34,723 bases of DNA from contig SCTQ01000406.1 of assembly GCA_004322345.1 (NCBI GenBank), positions 1 through 34,723 on the forward strand, in the 5' to 3' direction. The notes beneath the pieces were generated by a model. It was not told the origin of the DNA. It saw only the letters and a program-made list of their open reading frames with translations, and made no database searches. Every line of letters starts with the position of its first letter. Position 1 is the stretch's first letter. A program made the position numbers and the translations under genes. Positions 17,926 to 29,373 of the stretch are shown one piece after another. The DNA is from Aquabacterium sp. GTDB taxonomy: Bacteria > Pseudomonadota > Gammaproteobacteria > Burkholderiales > Burkholderiaceae_C.

Positions 17926-20900
17926 TCAGGCCGGCGCCAGCACCACCACGTCCTGCCCGGCCGTCACCGGCACGCCCTCGCGGCACAGCAGGGCGTGCAC
18001 CGTGCCGGCCTGGGGCGCGACGATGGGGAACTCCATCTTCATGGACTCGACGATGACCAGGGTGTCGCCGGCCGCCACCGCCTGGCCGGGCTGCACCAAG
18101 GCCTTCCACACGTTGCCCGACACGCTGGTCAGCACCACACGTGCGCCTTCGGGCAGATCCAGCTCGGACGGGTCCGTGGGCGCGGCGGTGTCCAGCTCGC
18201 TGACGTACTCCGCCTGCCCCGCCGCGCGCCAGCGTTCGCGCTCGGCCTCGAAGGAGGCCTGCTGCCTGGCCTTGAAGGCGGCGATGCCCTCGGCCTCCTT
18301 CGCCAGGAAGGCGCGGTACTCGCGCAGCGAGAAGCGCGTCTCCTCGATGCGCAGCGGATAGCGCCCGAGCGGGAAGTCGGCGCGGATGCGCAGCAGCTCC
18401 TGCTCGCTGACCGGGTGGAAACGCAGCTGGTCGAAGAAGCGCAGCAGCCAGGGTTTGCTGAACGCCGCCGCCCCGCCCTCGCCATGCCGCCAGCGGTTCC
18501 ACATCTGCAGCGTGCGGCCGACGAACTGGTAGCCGCCGGGCCCCTCCATGCCGTAGACGCAGAGGTAGGCGCCGCCGATGCCCACCGCGTTCTCCGGCGT
18601 CCAGGTGCGCGCCGGGTTGTACTTGGTGGTGACCAGGCGCTGGCGGGGGTCGATGGGCGTGGCCACGGGCGCGCCGAGGTAGACGTCACCCAGGCCCAGC
18701 ACGAGGTAGCTGGTGTCGAAGAACAGGCGCTGCACTTCGTCGACGGTGCCCAGGCCGTTGATGCGGCGGATGAACTCGATGTTGCTCGGGCACCAGGGTG
18801 CGTCGGGGCGCACGGACTGCGTGTACTTCTCGATCGCCGCCCGGGTCTGCGTGTCGTCCCAGGCCAGCGGCAGGTGGACGATGCGGCTGGGCACGACCAT
18901 GTCGTCAACCGGCGGCAGCGCGGCCTCCGCTTCGGCCAATTCGTCCAGCAGGCGCGTGCGCGGCAGGCGGGCCGGGTCGAAGTGGATCTGCAGTGAGCGG
19001 ATGCCCGGCGTCAGGTCCACGATGCCGTCGAGCCGGCGGGCCTGCAGCGCAGTCACCAGCGCGTGCACGCGCATGCGCAGCTCCAGGTCCAGCACCAGCG
19101 GGCCGTACTCGACGAGCAGATAGCGGTCGCCGGCTTGGCGGTAGACCACCCGCGGTGCGTCACCTGCGGCCGCGCGTTCGGCCAGCACGGGCGTCGTGCA
19201 GGCCTGCGCGTCGTCCTGCGGCTTGGCCGGCAGCGGCGCGGACAGCGTGCGGATGCTGGCTTCGATCGCCGCCTCGCGCTGCACGGCCTGCGCGGCGCTC
19301 AGCCGATGGAAGCGCAGCGTGTCGCCGGGTCGCAACTGGCCCAGCTTCCACAGCTCGGCGTTGACCACCACCGCGGGGCAGACGAAGCCGCCCAGGCTGG
19401 GGCCGTCGGGGCCGAGGATCACCGGCATGTCGCCGGTGAAGTCGATGGCGCCGATGGCGTAGGCGTTGTCGTGGATGTTGGACGGATGCAGGCCGGCCTC
19501 GCCGCCGTCGGTGCGGGCCCATTTCGGCTTCGGGCCGATCAGGCGCACGCCGGTGCGGCTGGAGTTGTAGTGCACCTCCCAGTCGGTGGCGAAGAAGGTG
19601 GTGACGTCTTCGTCGAGGAAGAAATCCGGCGCGCCATGCGGGCCGTAGAGCACGCCGATGTCCCAGTGGCGCGAGAAGGCCGGCGTCGCCTCGGGCGCGG
19701 CTTCGCGGCCCGGCGTGCCCTGCGCATCCGGATGCAGATGCAGCACATCGCCGGGCCGCAGCGTGCGTCCGGCATGGCCCCCGAACTGGCCCAGCGTGAA
19801 GGTCGAGCGGCTGCCCAGGTACAGCGGCACGTCGAGGCCGCCGGCCACGGCCAGGTAGACGCGGCAGCCCGCCTCCTCGATGCGGCCGATGTCCAGGCTG
19901 GCGCCGGCCTTCACCGCGTAGGAGCGCCACATGCGCAGCGGCTCGCCGTCCAGCGTCGCCTTGACCGGCGCGCCGGCCAGTGCGATCACCGTGTCGCTGT
20001 TGAAGCGCAGCAGCGGGCCGGCCATCGTGCACTCCAGGCCCGCGGCATCGCTGGCGTTGCCCACCAGCGCGTTGGCCACGCGCAGCGCATAGGCGTCCAT
20101 CGGGCCCGACGGCGGCACGCCCACGTCCCAGTAGCCCAGGCGCGCGGGCCAGTCCTGCACGGTCGTCTGCACGCCGGGCTCGACCACCTCCACCGTGTGC
20201 GGCCGGTAGGCGAAGCCGTTGAGGAAACGCGTGACCTGACGGCCCTGGACGAAGACCTGGTCGCGGATGATCTGGCGCAGGTAGTCGAGGTTGGTTTCGA
20301 TGCCGGCGATGCGCGTGGCGTCCAGCGCGGCCTGCAACTTGGCCAGCGCAGCGGCGCGGTCATCGGCCGTGACGATGATCTTGGCCAGCATCGGGTCGTA
20401 ATAGGCCGGCACCTCGGCGCCCCGCTCCACCCAGGTGTCCACGCGTGCGTCCGCCGGGAACACGACTTCGGTCAGCACGCCGGTGCTGGGCTGGAAGTTC
20501 TTGCCGGGGTCCTCGGCGTACAGGCGCACCTGGATGGAGGCGCCCTGCAGCCTGGGCTGCAGCTGCGGCAGGGGCAGCAGGTCGCCAGCGGCCAGCTGCA
20601 CCATCCACGCGACGAGATCGACGCCGCTGACCTGCTCGGTCACGCCGTGCTCGACCTGCAGGCGGGTGTTGACCTCCAGGAAGTAGAAGCGGCCTTCCTT
20701 GGCGTCGTAGACGAACTCCACCGTGCCGGCGGAGCGGTAGTTCACCGCCTGCGCCAGGCGCACGGCAGTGGCGTGCAGTTCGCTGCGCTGCGCATCGCTC
20801 AGGCCGGGGGCGGGCGTCTCCTCGATCACCTTCTGGTTGCGCCGCTGCACCGAGCAGTCGCGCTCGCCCAGCGCGATCACGCCGCCGCGCCCGTCGCCGA

Positions 20901-21537
20901 AGACCTGCACCTCGATGTGCCGCGCCTGTTCGACGTACTTCTCCAGGAAGAGCCCGGCGTCCTTGAAGTTGTTGGCCGCCAGCCGCTGCACCGAGGCGAA
21001 CGCGTCGGCCAGTTCGCCGTCGTTCCAGACCAGCCGCATGCCGATGCCGCCGCCGCCGGCGGTGCTCTTGAGCATCACCGGGTAGCCGATGCGCGCGGCC
21101 TCGGCCTGCGCATGCGCGACGTCGCCGAGCAAACCGCTGCCGGGCAGCAGCGGCACCTGGCAGCGCTCGGCCAGCTCGCGTGCGGTGTGCTTGAGGCCGA
21201 AGGCTCGCATCTGGTCCGGCGCCGGGCCGATGAAGGCGATGCCCGCTGCCTCGCAGGCTTCGCTGAAGCCGGCGTTCTCCGACAGGAAGCCGTAGCCCGG
21301 GTGGATGGCCTGCGCGCCGCTGAGCTTGGCGACTTCCAGGATCTTGTCCTGGCGCAGGTAGCTTTCGGCCGCCAGCGCGGGGCCGATGCAGTAGGCCTCG
21401 TCGGCCTCGCGCACGTGGCGCGATGCGGCGTCCGCCTCCGAGTACACGGCCACGCTGCCCACGCCCAGGGCTTTCAGCGTGCGGATGATGCGGCAGGCGA
21501 TGGCGCCGCGGTTGGCGATCAGGACCTTGTTGAACAT
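17926..21537 (-). CDS. Urea/guanidine carboxylase (biotin-dependent), probably guanidine carboxylase
   Basis: 1203-residue biotin enzyme that carboxylates urea or guanidine using ATP and bicarbonate. Domain order: biotin carboxylase (1-450) with ATP-grasp loop GGGGIGM (161-167) and [10 protein letters not shown] (288-297); carboxyltransferase halves similar to allophanate hydrolase subunits 2 (about 470-780) and 1 (about 800-1010); a C-terminal region with the biotin site ESMKMEF, Lys1167 carrying biotin. No fused allophanate hydrolase domain. Databases often call this urea carboxylase. The guanidine-I riboswitch and the two DUF1989 proteins upstream indicate guanidine as substrate, giving carboxyguanidine. 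Substrate specificity was not read from residues. Confidence 0.93.
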
Positions 21538-21624
21538 GGCGACAGGCGTCTGGGTGCGGGCCGTCCCGCTTGGGCGTGCGCGCCGCGGGTCGTCCCGCGG
21601 CGGAGGTCCGGGTTCGCTAGGCGG

Positions 21625-24892: not shown

Positions 24893-25918
24893 CTACTTGG
24901 CCTTCAGCGCCTCGGCCAGCAGCGAGGCGTCGATGCCCTTGGCGGGATCGGGCCTGCCTTCGATCAGCTTGTTGTCGGAGAGGAACTTGATCACGGTGGG
25001 CGCCACGCCCAGCAGCGACAGCGGGTTGCCGGCCGGGCCCATGGCCTCCTGGTTGAGCCTGGCGTCGAAGAAGCGCGTGCCCGGCAGCAACAGCTTGTAT
25101 TCGGCCGGCTGGAGGCTGACCACCTTGCTCATGATCTTCGCGGCCTCGTCGGGCTGGCTCTGGATGAAGGCCACGGTGTCGAACCAGGCGCGGATCATCC
25201 CGACGTAGTCACGACGCTTGGCGGCGATGCTCTTTTCCTGCGCCACCAGCAGGTCAGGGATCAGGCCCGGCAGGTCCTTGGAGGTGAAGAGCGTGCGGCC
25301 CTTGCCGCTGGCCTCGATCTGGTGGATCCAGGGGTTCCAGACCACGGCCGCGTCGACGCGGCCGCTCATGAAGGCCGCGGCTGCGTCACCGGCCGACAGG
25401 TTGACGATCTTCACGTCGCCCGGCTTCATGCCGTTCTTCGCCAGGGCGTTGACGAGCACGAAGTGCGAGACGCTGAACTGCTCCAGCGCGATGCTCCTGC
25501 CCTTGAGGTCGGGGAAGGCCTTGATCTTCGGGCCCACCACCAGCGCGTCGTTGCCGGCCGAGTTGTCGTTGACGAGGATGGTCTTCAGCGCGATGCCCTT
25601 GGCCAGCGGGCCCATGGTGTCGGACCAGGTCTGGGAGTTGGCGTCGAGCTGGCCGGCGGACAGGGCGGATATGGAGTCGGTGTAGTTGGCGAACCAGACG
25701 AGCTTGACCTCCGCGCCGTGCTTCTTGAAGTAGCCCTTCTGCTCGGCCACGTACCAGGCCACCCAGCCCGGCCAGTCGGACACGCCGACCTTGATCTCGG
25801 CACGCGCGGAGGACATGCCGACGACGAAGAGCGCGGCGCCAACGAATGCAGCGGCCAGCGCCTGGAGGATGCGGGAAGGGGATGGGAGGGCGGCGGTGAT
25901 GCGGACGTTGACGGCCAT
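24893..25918 (-). CDS. ABC transporter substrate-binding protein (NMT1/SsuA/TauA-like)
   Basis: 341-residue periplasmic binding protein. It has a signal peptide with a hydrophobic core LQALAAAFVGAALFVVGM ending at ARA (about residue 40), then the mature start EIKVGVSDWPGWVAWYVAEQ typical of the nitrate/sulfonate/taurine group. The frame stays open upstream through the riboswitch, but AGGAG eight bases before the ATG at 25918 identifies the start. First gene of the operon controlled by the guanidine riboswitch; a guanidine-related ligand is likely but not proven. Confidence 0.92.
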   Translation of the reverse strand: MAVNVRITAALPSPSRILQALAAAFVGAALFVVGMSSARAEIKVGVSDWPGWVAWYVAEQKGYFKKHGAEVKLVWFANYTDSISALSAGQLDANSQTWSDTMGPLAKGIALKTILVNDNSAGNDALVVGPKIKAFPDLKGRSIALEQFSVSHFVLVNALAKNGMKPGDVKIVNLSAGDAAAAFMSGRVDAAVVWNPWIHQIEASGKGRTLFTSKDLPGLIPDLLVAQEKSIAAKRRDYVGMIRAWFDTVAFIQSQPDEAAKIMSKVVSLQPAEYKLLLPGTRFFDARLNQEAMGPAGNPLSLLGVAPTVIKFLSDNKLIEGRPDPAKGIDASLLAEALKAK

Positions 25919-25926
25919 GGGGAACG

Positions 25927-25984
25927 CTCCTGCACGAAGGGATGGATGGAACCGCAAGAGGCGCCTGCCAGGTCGCACGACCTG
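25927..25984 (-). promoter_or_regulatory. Putative translational expression platform of the guanidine riboswitch
   Basis: Between the aptamer and the start codon are a short hairpin, CAGGTCG / CGACCTG (25969-25984), and an anti-Shine-Dalgarno stretch CTCTTGC (25954-25960). The latter can pair over seven positions (one G-U) with GCAGGAG (25927-25933), which contains the ribosome binding site. No terminator with a T-run is present. Control at translation initiation is therefore more likely than termination. This is a structural inference. Confidence 0.45.
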
Positions 25985-25989
25985 CAAAC

Positions 25990-26100
25990 ACACCTCCCGG
26001 GCTTTTATCCCTCCGTGGAGCTTCCCCTGCCGGGCAAGCCGGTCACTCTCGGTCGCGGACATCGCGCAGGCCGCAGCCGGCGATCGGAACCCTAGAGACC
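25990..26100 (-). ncRNA. Guanidine-I riboswitch (ykkC class)
   Basis: On the minus strand the 5' part contains CTAGGGTTCCG (26085-26095). It is followed by CCGAGAG (26046-26052) and the 3' hallmark ACGG...GGGATAAAAGCCCGGGAG (25994-26011). These blocks, in order and at about the right spacing, are the conserved core of the ykkC guanidine-I aptamer, which binds guanidinium and turns genes on. It lies about 70 bases upstream of the binding-protein gene. The genes below it (transporter, DUF1989 pair, carboxylase) are exactly those known to be controlled by this class. Confidence 0.93.
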
Positions 26101-26318
26101 ATTAACGACAAGGCTTGCGCCTCTCGCACCGTCGACTGCATGCAAACCGTGCGCCAGCGCTTGTCGCCCGGTTTTGCACTCGAAACGTGCACTCCGGGCC
26201 GGACGCCGCACCAAGCCCTGGCTCACCCTGGCGGGAACCCGCGTCCGCGATCGGCTTGTGCGGCCGCGCTGCGCCCGCACTTGGGGCCCGACGCACATCC
26301 CGCAAGGCCGCGACCCGA
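26101..26318. other. Divergent intergenic region between guanidine operon and corA
   Basis: About 220 bases without a supported gene. It should hold the promoter of the riboswitch transcript: on the minus strand a GTTAAT box lies just before the aptamer, but its -35 partner is poor. No other structure stands out. Confidence 0.4.
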
Positions 26319-27553: not shown

Positions 27554-28672
27554 TCAGCGTGCGCGGCGCGCGGCCACCGCATCCGACAGGATCTTCAGCA
27601 CCTGCTCGGAATCGTCCCAGCCGATGCAGGCATCGGTGATGCTCTGGCCGTAGGCCAGCTTGGACGGATCGTCCTTGCCCGGGGTGAACTTCTGGGCGCC
27701 GGCGTTCAGGTGGCTTTCCACCATCACGCCGAAGATGCGGCGGCTGCCGCCGCTGACCTGGCGTGCGATGTCCTGGGCCACCTCGATCTGCTTCTGGTGC
27801 TGCTTGGAACTGTTGGCATGCGAGCAGTCCACCATCAGCGTGGCCGGCAGCTTGGCGGCCTCCAGATCCTTGCAGGCGGCCTCGACGCTGGCCTCGTCGT
27901 AGTTGGGCGCCTTGCCGCCGCGCAGGATCACGTGGCAGTCCGGGTTGCCCGCGGTCTCGACGATGGAGACCTGGCCGTTCTTGTGCACCGACAGGAAGTG
28001 GTGCGGGCGGGCCGCGGCCTGGATGGCGTCGGTGGCGATCTTGATGTTGCCGTCGGTACCGTTCTTGAAGCCGATGGGCGCCGACAGGCCGGAGGACAGT
28101 TCGCGGTGCACCTGGCTCTCGGTCGTGCGTGCGCCGATCGCGCCCCAGGAGATCAGGTCGCCGATGTACTGCGGCGAGATCACGTCCAGGAACTCGCTGC
28201 CCGCCGGCACGCCCAGCCGGTTGATGTCCAGCAGCAGCGAGCGTGCAATGCGCAGGCCTTCGTCGATGCGGAAGCTCTCGTCCAGGTAGGGGTCGTTGAT
28301 CAGTCCCTTCCAGCCCACCGTCGTGCGCGGCTTCTCGAAGTAGACGCGCATGACGATCTCCAGCGTGTCCTTGTACTGCTCGCGCAGCGCCTTGAGCTTG
28401 CGCGCGTAGTCCACAGCCGCAACGGGATCGTGGATGGAGCAGGGGCCGATGATGACCAGCATGCGGTCCTGCGCGCCCTGCAGGATGTTGCGGATGGCCG
28501 AACGCGTCTGCGTGACCAGGGCCTCCACCGGCGTGCCGCGGATCGGGAAGAAGCGGATCAGGTGCTCCGGCGGCGGCAGCGGCGTGACGCCGCGGATGCG
28601 TTCGTCGTCGGTGCGCGAGGTGCGGTCGTCGGGGGCTACCCAGTTTTCGGCGGCGGAGGATGCGGCGTTCAT
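27554..28672 (-). CDS. aroG: 3-deoxy-7-phosphoheptulonate synthase (class I DAHP synthase)
   Basis: First enzyme of the shikimate pathway: phosphoenolpyruvate plus erythrose 4-phosphate gives DAHP. The 372-residue class I (AroG/AroF/AroH type) protein has GPCSIHDP (76-83) with the metal-ligand Cys78, EKPRTTVGWKGL, GFKNGTDGN and the HANSSKQHQKQ metal/substrate segment. It is about 20 residues longer at the N-terminus than E. coli AroG. The start at 28672 has AGGAGTCCACG before it; a longer in-frame start at 28729 lies inside the leader. The isozyme letter (sensitivity to Phe, Tyr or Trp) cannot be decided from sequence alone. An attenuator lies upstream. Confidence 0.94.
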   Translation of the reverse strand: MNAASSAAENWVAPDDRTSRTDDERIRGVTPLPPPEHLIRFFPIRGTPVEALVTQTRSAIRNILQGAQDRMLVIIGPCSIHDPVAAVDYARKLKALREQYKDTLEIVMRVYFEKPRTTVGWKGLINDPYLDESFRIDEGLRIARSLLLDINRLGVPAGSEFLDVISPQYIGDLISWGAIGARTTESQVHRELSSGLSAPIGFKNGTDGNIKIATDAIQAAARPHHFLSVHKNGQVSIVETAGNPDCHVILRGGKAPNYDEASVEAACKDLEAAKLPATLMVDCSHANSSKQHQKQIEVAQDIARQVSGGSRRIFGVMVESHLNAGAQKFTPGKDDPSKLAYGQSITDACIGWDDSEQVLKILSDAVAARRAR

Positions 28673-28726
28673 CGTGGACTCCTGATAGGGACTGCGGGCG
28701 GAACAGGAAGAGAGAAAGTGGACGGA

Positions 28727-28760
28727 CAAAGAAAAACCGCCGGGGGTCGCCCGGCGGTTT
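28727..28760 (-). terminator. Attenuator terminator in the DAHP synthase leader
   Basis: On the minus strand AAACCGCCGGG pairs with CCCGGCGGTTT (28734-28744 and 28750-28760, 11 pairs, 5-base loop), followed directly by TTTTTCTTTG. It lies between the leader peptide and the DAHP synthase start, a canonical intrinsic terminator in an attenuation position. Confidence 0.88.
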
Positions 28761-28820
28761 CGAGGATTCGGCTAGCTGCTGCTTCTACTCATGGGCGCTA
28801 GCCTCTCCATCCGCCGGGCG
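28748..28820 (-). promoter_or_regulatory. Antiterminator pairing of the aromatic attenuator
   Basis: CGCCCGGCGG inside the leader peptide gene (28811-28820) is the exact reverse complement of CCGCCGGGCG (28748-28757), the 5' arm of the terminator. The two structures are mutually exclusive. A further pair, GGCTAGC / GCTAGCC (28797-28803 with 28770-28776), forms a hairpin between them. A ribosome stalled at the aromatic codons (28830-28850) would leave 28811-28820 free and allow antitermination. One that reaches the stop codon at 28785 would cover it and let the terminator form. Confidence 0.75.
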
Positions 28821-28865
28821 GTGCGAGAGCCAAAAGTAGCCAAAGTAGAAGTGCTGCGTATGCAT
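28785..28865 (-). CDS. Aromatic leader peptide of the DAHP synthase attenuator
   Basis: A 26-codon frame starting MHTQHFYFGYFW: residues 6-12 read Phe-Tyr-Phe-Gly-Tyr-Phe-Trp, six aromatic residues in seven codons covering all three end products of the pathway. The rest is not aromatic, and the stop TAG lies 25 bases before the terminator stem. The ribosome binding site is weak (CCAGG close to the ATG). The frame is too short for standard gene finders. It should report charged Phe-, Tyr- and Trp-tRNA levels by ribosome stalling. Confidence 0.82.
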   Translation of the reverse strand: MHTQHFYFGYFWLSHRPADGEASAHE

Positions 28866-28942
28866 GGCCTGGACTCTAGCACGCCGATGCAGACCGCGGC
28901 AGCGCCGCTGCAGCGAAAGGCCCAATAGCTGAACGCCGGCTT

Positions 28943-29088: not shown

Positions 29089-29373
29089 TCAGACCGCGCG
29101 GGCCTTTTCCACCAGGCGCGTCACGATCCAAGCCTTGGTCTTGGAGATCGGACGACCTTCCGAGATCTCCACCAGGTCGCCCATGTGGAACTCGTTCTTC
29201 TCGTCATGAGCGTGGTACTTGCGCGAGCGGGCCACGATCTTGCCGTAGAGCTCGTGCTTGACACGCCGCTCGACCAGCACGGTCACGGTCTTGCTGCGCT
29301 TGTCGCTGACGACACGGCCCACCAGGGTGCGCGTGTTCTTCTCAGCCGCTTGGGTTTGCTCTTGAGCGCTCAT
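29089..29373 (-). CDS. rpsQ: 30S ribosomal protein S17
   Basis: Primary 16S rRNA-binding protein of the small subunit. 94 residues; after an Ala/Gln-rich 15-residue lead come [29 protein letters not shown] and the [16 protein letters not shown]-terminus. Its start overlaps the rpmC stop as ATGA. Last gene of the S10 operon here; no rplN follows. Confidence 0.98.

Follow-up and report, generated by a model that had tools for sequence, protein, structure and literature searches.

A putative leaderless, ribosome-mediated attenuator upstream of the DAHP synthase gene in Aquabacterium and related Burkholderiales

Described attenuators and the Aquabacterium locus

The trpL, pheL and ilvL leaders of Escherichia coli carry a ribosome-binding site, which the leader described here seems to lack; they resemble the present system in their alternative hairpins but serve different genes, and ilvL is a precedent for the sensing of several amino acids at once. 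The attenuators trpL and pheL are covered in PMC11802643. The same source describes the E. coli DAHP synthase (DAHPS) genes aroH and aroF as repressed through TyrR and TrpR. An attenuator of a DAHPS gene, listed for Tyr-tRNA, has been put forward as a hypothesis or prediction for aroF of E. coli and Shewanella (Camakaris 1980, via PMC2659441 and PMC8632094). In Corynebacterium glutamicum, the peptide leader aroR, with a Phe-Tyr-Phe motif, precedes the DAHPS gene aroF and acts by ribosome-mediated attenuation; PMC11802643 describes a response of this operon to Phe but none to Tyr (Neshat et al. 2014, cited there). aroR comes from a distant phylum, and its likeness to our locus is one of design. 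The uORFC-13-1 motif, a comparative prediction, similarly combines a terminator with a uORF that has one or more Phe codons, both preceding the DAHPS gene aroF of Acholeplasma, but its 24 examples come from Acholeplasma and environmental sequences only and have a ribosome-binding site (PMC8632094). Finally, trpL of Sinorhizobium meliloti is a precedent for a leaderless attenuator leader; it differs in carrying Trp codons and preceding trpE, and its RNA and peptide also act in trans (PMC7298713).

Among the open-licence papers listed, we found none on an aromatic leader attenuator of DAHPS in Burkholderiales; the main text of PMC2965389 mentions neither aroG, aroF nor DAHP, and the consulted part of PMC1262725 gives no DAHPS case in Actinobacteria. 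An initial sequence-only reading of the locus did not count a single leader that senses all three aromatic amino acids as a standard case for aroG; DAHPS attenuation as such is known in C. glutamicum, predicted in Acholeplasma and Shewanella and proposed for E. coli aroF. Each ingredient has a precedent; the proposed combination of three aromatic amino acids, a DAHPS gene, a leaderless ORF and an order-wide distribution is new to us.

The window analysed here is a stretch of 34,723 nucleotides from a 4.9-Mb draft genome of Aquabacterium sp. (453 contigs). On its minus strand, the S17 gene is followed in order by a hairpin with a T run, an extended -10 element, a short leader ORF, a terminator and the DAHPS gene:

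29373-29089, minus strand: rpsQ (S17), the upstream neighbour
~29023-28995: hairpin with a T run after rpsQ; minus-strand sequence, GGCCGG...CCGGCCGTTTTT, placed on the plus strand in the terminator list
28873-28881, minus strand: extended -10 element, TGCTAGAGT, which ends 7 nt ahead of the leader ATG; putative promoter
28865, minus strand: predicted transcription start, the A of the leader ATG, from the -10 spacing and the C at -1
28865-28785, minus strand: leader ORF, 26 codons plus stop, product MHTQHFYFGYFWLSHRPADGEASAHE
28803-28829, minus strand: hairpin P1 (1:2), candidate anti-antiterminator or pause hairpin; CUCUC at 28829-28825 with GAGAG at 28807-28803, inner CCGC/GCGG
28811-28820, minus strand: region 2, the antiterminator strand, CGCCCGGCGG, in codons 16-19
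28748-28757, minus strand: region 3, the terminator 5' arm, common to antiterminator and terminator, CCGCCGGGCG
28727-28761, minus strand: intrinsic terminator (3:4) with U tract; stem 28761-28733, T5-C-T3 from 28736
28679-28683, minus strand: AGGAG, Shine-Dalgarno-like sequence of the DAHPS gene
27554-28672, minus strand: type I DAHPS gene, the putative regulated gene (TIGR00034, 534 bits; cut-off 173)

The DAHPS is the only one found in the assembly, as a single protein match, and no type II DAHPS was found there. A second protein matching PF00793 (L315) was rejected as a DAHPS and judged to be KdsA from its neighbour genes, which by eye we take to be pyrG and eno. The gene had at first been called aroG: its assignment as a DAHPS gene stands, but the E. 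coli-type name is tentative. The protein narrowly misses the NCBIfam cut-off for AroG (549 against 568 bits) and passes the one for AroH (510 against 463 bits).

Three parts of an attenuator are present, namely a short ORF rich in aromatic codons, a terminator before the gene and an antiterminator that occupies the terminator 5' arm. Translation of 28865-28785 confirmed a 26-codon frame with Phe-Tyr-Phe-Gly-Tyr-Phe-Trp at codons 6-12 (core HFYFGYFWL; aromatic codons 6-8 and 10-12 at 28850-28830). CGCCCGGCGG at 28820-28811 is the perfect reverse complement of CCGCCGGGCG at 28757-28748 over 10 bases, which makes precise the 10-base match noted earlier. Since both helices use the strand 28757-28748, terminator and antiterminator are mutually exclusive, as the sequence-only reading had it. 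In P1, CUCUC lies just past the aromatic codons and GAGAG just past region 2.

These features point to a ribosome-mediated transcription attenuator of the DAHPS gene, a reading to which we assign a probability of about 0.9. The transcript would begin at the leader AUG or right beside it, and a ribosome would load on the bare 5' end. With charged Phe-, Tyr- or Trp-tRNA plentiful, the ribosome would cross codons 6-12, cover region 2 and reach the UAG; region 3 could then form the terminator with region 4, ending transcription after ~136 nt. A ribosome stalled on the aromatic codons would instead cover the 5' strand of P1, leaving region 2 (codons 16-19) free for the terminator 5' arm, so that the polymerase would read into the gene.

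DAHPS commits carbon to all aromatic amino acids, and such an RNA switch would tie this step in many Burkholderiales directly to aminoacyl-tRNA through one leader. The switch might also serve as a handle in strains built for aromatic production.

The leader ORF, its predicted start and the amino acids it may sense

We searched 149 genomes, 129 of which had a DAHPS match, and took the DNA upstream of 110 DAHPS genes of relatives (30 + 80 loci). A leader was counted when it encoded at least three aromatic residues and was accompanied by a terminator whose stem contains ACCGC or ACCGT. By this definition, 88 of the 110 loci have an aromatic leader and terminator. Thirteen of the remaining 22 are second-copy DAHPS loci (L098-L110), among which no aromatic leader was found (0/13). 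The others are L071, L081, L083, L086-L090 and L080; in the latter a leader is present by eye, with its terminator past the assumed gene start. In a second set, the best 80 of at least 591 relatives (species-level records, with some species in common with the first set), leader and terminator were found at 72 of the 80 loci, in genera including Aquabacterium, Acidovorax, Variovorax, Comamonas, Polaromonas, Hydrogenophaga and Ideonella. In that best-80 set the leader was not seen at four of six Polynucleobacter loci (L167, L169, L179 and L181) or at either of two Cupriavidus loci (L174 and L177); the other two Polynucleobacter loci, L162 and L168, carry it. As for two further loci, L175, counted as lacking a leader, has only 4 nt of upstream sequence, and in L135 a leader is present by eye. 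In L167, L169, L179 and L181, an upstream frame comes, by eye, as close as a few tens of bases to the DAHPS gene.

A cluster of aromatic codons of this density is not a chance occurrence, since the whole 34.7-kb window contains a single 7-codon stretch with at least six Phe, Tyr or Trp codons in its six frames, and 20 first-order Markov windows contained 0.0 on average.

The position of the -10 element relative to the ATG suggests where transcription starts. A sigma-70 scan, which requires a -35 box, found no promoter at this site. Among the 88 loci, with starts scored in favour of those that have a -10 element 5-9 nt ahead, the distance from the end of TGnTAnAnT to the ATG is 7 nt in 55, 8 nt in 11, 6 nt in 6 and 9 nt in 1, and the motif was not found in 15; the spacing is thus 6-8 nt in 72 of 88. 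In the best 80 of at least 591 relatives, scanned with the same preference, it is 6-8 nt in 69 of the 72 leaders (38 at 7, 17 at 8 and 14 at 6). When the start was chosen blindly, which sets some frames wrong, the spacing was 7 nt in 45, 8 nt in 9, 6 nt in 3 and 9-14 nt in 3, with no element in 28, i.e. 6-8 nt in 57 of 88. Between the -10 element and the ATG, only a C at -1 (82% of relatives) exceeds 0.35 bits, and column conservation among the relatives shows no Shine-Dalgarno-like column. Given the usual distance of a -10 element from the transcription start, the transcript should begin with the A of the ATG or a neighbouring base. The leader ORF is therefore probably leaderless, and the predicted start lies at the leader ATG rather than downstream of 28865, where it would have spoken against the attenuator. 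The system would lend itself to asking how attenuation works on an mRNA seemingly without a Shine-Dalgarno sequence.

The identity of the aromatic residues bears on what the leader may sense. All 88 leaders have Phe codons, 87 have Tyr and 70 have Trp, with means of 4.0, 1.7 and 0.8 codons per leader, respectively; all three residues occur together in 69 of 88, and in 65 of the 72 leaders from the best 80 of at least 591 relatives. Their order and number vary (FYFGYFW, FYFWHF, FYFYFWF, FFFAYFWF). A plausible alternative, to which we give somewhat less than even odds, is that the attenuator senses Phe only, or Phe and Tyr, with the Trp codon a passenger or fine-tuner. The near-universal Phe and Tyr codons and the lower frequency of Trp are in its favour, as is the response of the Phe-Tyr-Phe leader of C. 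glutamicum aroR to Phe and not Tyr, as reported in PMC11802643. However, the final aromatic codon ahead of region 2 in the Aquabacterium leader is Trp, a position well suited to a stall, and the 65 of 72 leaders with all three residues also argue against it. Sensing of all three amino acids, as proposed in the sequence-only reading, is thus likely but needs qualification: Phe and Tyr are the most likely signals, and Trp would count in the lineages that keep its codon, including this one, given that 18 of 88 leaders have no Trp.

One might suppose that a single enzyme has to sense all three amino acids. A hand cross-tabulation, confounded by kinship, found Trp in 23 of 23 leaders where the genome has at least two type I DAHPS matches and in 47 of 65 where it has a single one. 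Trp is therefore less frequent in the latter, which does not support this idea. The leaders also differ from DAHPS genes in their Phe codons, which are TTT in 237 of 353 cases (67%) as opposed to 158 of 682 (23%) in the DAHPS genes of the best-80 set. Tyr codons have no such bias (TAT in 44 of 150 in leaders and 162 of 655 in DAHPS genes). Slower decoding or freedom from pairing are our guesses at the cause of the TTT preference.

We modelled the folding of the nascent RNA with a ribosome at successive codons, assuming a 13-nt forward footprint and a transcript that ends before region 4. The predicted 2:3 pairing averages 0.84 over the 88 leaders when the A site holds an aromatic codon. It lies between 0.77 and 0.88 at the last aromatic codon (0.77) and the three preceding ones, falls to 0.45, 0.26 and 0.08 over the three codons that follow, and is 0.00 at the stop. 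In 79 of 88 leaders, the last permissive codon comes 0-2 codons past the final aromatic codon. In these models the aromatic run thus appears to end where 2:3 pairing stops being possible, which agrees with the earlier proposal that the aromatic codons are placed so that a stall frees the antiterminator strand. As stalls upstream of the aromatic codons also permit 2:3 pairing (predicted at 0.60-0.82), the geometry sets a downstream limit only. Without a ribosome, the antiterminator has a predicted probability of 1.0 in this window (mean 0.37 over the 88 leaders). The untranslated state may hence read through here unless P1 forms first, and off-state control in this window may rest on fast formation of P1 or on constant translation. 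Across relatives, the combination of a conserved switch and a varying aromatic order forms a natural series for asking which codon, and at what distance, a stalled ribosome needs.

Conservation of the alternative helices

The terminator stretch 28761-28727 folds at -21.3 kcal/mol with a z-score of -4.3, in agreement with the strong intrinsic terminator first placed at 28727-28760, and its ACCGCC...GGCGGT stem is nearly invariant in 73 aligned relatives. This sequence seems conserved beyond what termination alone should need. The 166-nt region as a whole has a fold z-score of -3.0 relative to dinucleotide shuffles, 2 of 200 of which were as good, and the complete 139-nt leader with its full terminator folds as P1 plus terminator. 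RNAalifold alone recovered the terminator only.

Covariation of the fold in related Burkholderiales had been suggested as a check, and it was found for the antiterminator. We used an alignment of 73 of the 88 loci, called A1, in which region 2 is off by one column in at least three (L001, L041 and L053), and shuffle and arm-swap tests that ignore kinship. The antiterminator helix is paired in 88.6% of A1 cells as opposed to 15.5-50.9% when slid, and its covariation score is 0.078 as opposed to at most 0.040 when slid; none of 500 shuffles was as high in either measure. Changes on both sides of a pair (4 pairs, 7 cells) exceeded those of all shuffles but not those of slide +3 (4 pairs, 8 cells); 31 of 500 shuffles had as many pair types. 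Region 2 pairs better with its own arm than with swapped arms in 5000 of 5000 draws for the 88 loci. This advantage was repeated in all 5000 draws with 169 unique sequences, including some from other families. The latter set comprises 184 sequences minus 5, with identical ones merged; three of the five had no recognised terminator, among them L207, the flank of which is cut short, and two had no region 2 motif. At region 2 position 2 and arm position 6, the 169 sequences have C-G in 88, T-A in 39, T-G in 8 and no pair in 34.

Two loci, L056 and L037, have a T in the terminator 5' arm and the matching A in region 2, while the G is kept in the 3' arm as a G-U pair. As arm and region 2 are altered together and the 3' arm is not, the change follows the antiterminator. 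Other arm changes have no match in region 2, e.g. in L036, L045, L054, L064 and L082. Loss of the aromatic codons or of the 10-base complementarity among relatives would have weakened the attenuator reading; we found both to be conserved.

Hairpin P1 is less well supported than the antiterminator and terminator helices. In the window its minimum free energy is -16.2 kcal/mol, with a z-score of only -0.75. Its outer helix is paired in 83.0% of cells, a value reached by 3 of 500 shuffles; 183 of 500 reach its number of pairs changed on both sides and 392 of 500 its number of pair types. Sliding the partner by -2 gave 93.8% pairing, in fewer cells, and by eye the register seems lineage-dependent.

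In the fold of the window, we also observed that the leader codons for the first Phe-Tyr (approximately 28851-28843) can pair over ~8-9 bases with 28788-28780 of the minus strand, at the leader stop, which encloses P1.

The relation of region 2 to the reading frame bears on whether RNA or peptide is conserved. Of the 88 leaders, 73 read region 2 in peptide frame 1, 12 in frame 0 and 3 in frame 2, and its nearly identical bases encode TGGGEA, PGGREA, RPADGEA or SHRRAK. Being kept in all three frames, it is conserved as RNA rather than as peptide. We therefore consider it very unlikely that the leader encodes an arrest peptide, the nascent chain of which would sense free aromatic amino acids in the ribosome as TnaC does. 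Such a peptide would also control downstream transcription and would fit the conserved aromatic core, but the order, number and spacing of the aromatic residues vary, and the C-terminal half shifts frame between lineages while the RNA is unchanged.

A metabolite-binding riboswitch or protein-bound leader in which the ORF is incidental is barely credible. Strong conserved hairpins before a biosynthetic gene are what it would predict, yet the ORF with its aromatic codons is kept although its flanks vary, and no Rfam family matched the leader at the gathering score or at E <= 5. At 20 related loci, a search at E <= 1 returned a tRNA at the gathering score and three weak matches, and no leader family. 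Lacking an Rfam leader match, the proposed attenuator is a candidate for a new family. Equally improbable is a terminator of an upstream transcript next to a chance aromatic ORF: rpsQ does end upstream, at 29089, but would be ended by the hairpin and T run that already follow it (~29023-28995), and conservation of the ORF-terminator pair before DAHPS genes across families already contradicts this idea.

Distribution in the order and other elements of the genome

We built a covariance model of P1 and the terminator, R1, from the 73 DAHPS loci and used it to search genomes that included some of its sources. In the order, it gave 118 matches in 115 of 399 genomes. A DAHPS gene lies just downstream of 105 of the 118 matches, in 104 genomes (96 of 109 examined by neighbourhood, 5 of 5 in a further set and 4 by coordinates), and none of the 13 others has an E value below 7.9e-4. 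The matches with a confirmed DAHPS span, by hand count, 14 families of the sample. When the positions of 30 matches were rechecked, the DAHPS start was -19 to +98 nt from the match end in 29, and at 0 or more in 25. At L207, tblastn placed its best piece ~1 kb further on, and an N-terminus resembling that of DAHPS is visible by eye right past the terminator. Among genomes of the class, 8 of 369 had matches: three belong to family f1, and four of the other five matches precede a DAHPS gene; L310 (E 3.2e-4) does not. Some distant leaders, L276 and L318, have few in-frame aromatic codons.

By analogy with rnTrpL and peTrpL, one may picture a leaderless switch that reads Phe-, Tyr- and Trp-tRNA across the order and the terminated ~136-nt leaderless RNA or 26-residue peptide of which also acts in trans; we regard this extended scheme as unlikely.

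In the Aquabacterium genome itself, R1 gave one strong match and five others with E values of 0.26-7.2, among which L297 has no DAHPS gene. Before trpE on contig C248 of the same genome (L311, 1216-1293), we observed a small ORF, MFISRKHTKGSHDRGAWPWRIPSWM, with three Trp codons. It begins 6 nt past a TGCTACACT element and is possibly leaderless too; no TTTT run follows it and hence no terminator by the test used. Before pheA in this genome, the ORF list shows no small frame rich in aromatic codons. The window also contains two guanidine riboswitches:

25992-26106, minus strand: guanidine-I riboswitch, before an ABC-transporter binding-protein gene (24893-26062)
21557-21601, minus strand: guanidine-II riboswitch, before a large ORF that by eye is carboxylase-like (17926-21537)
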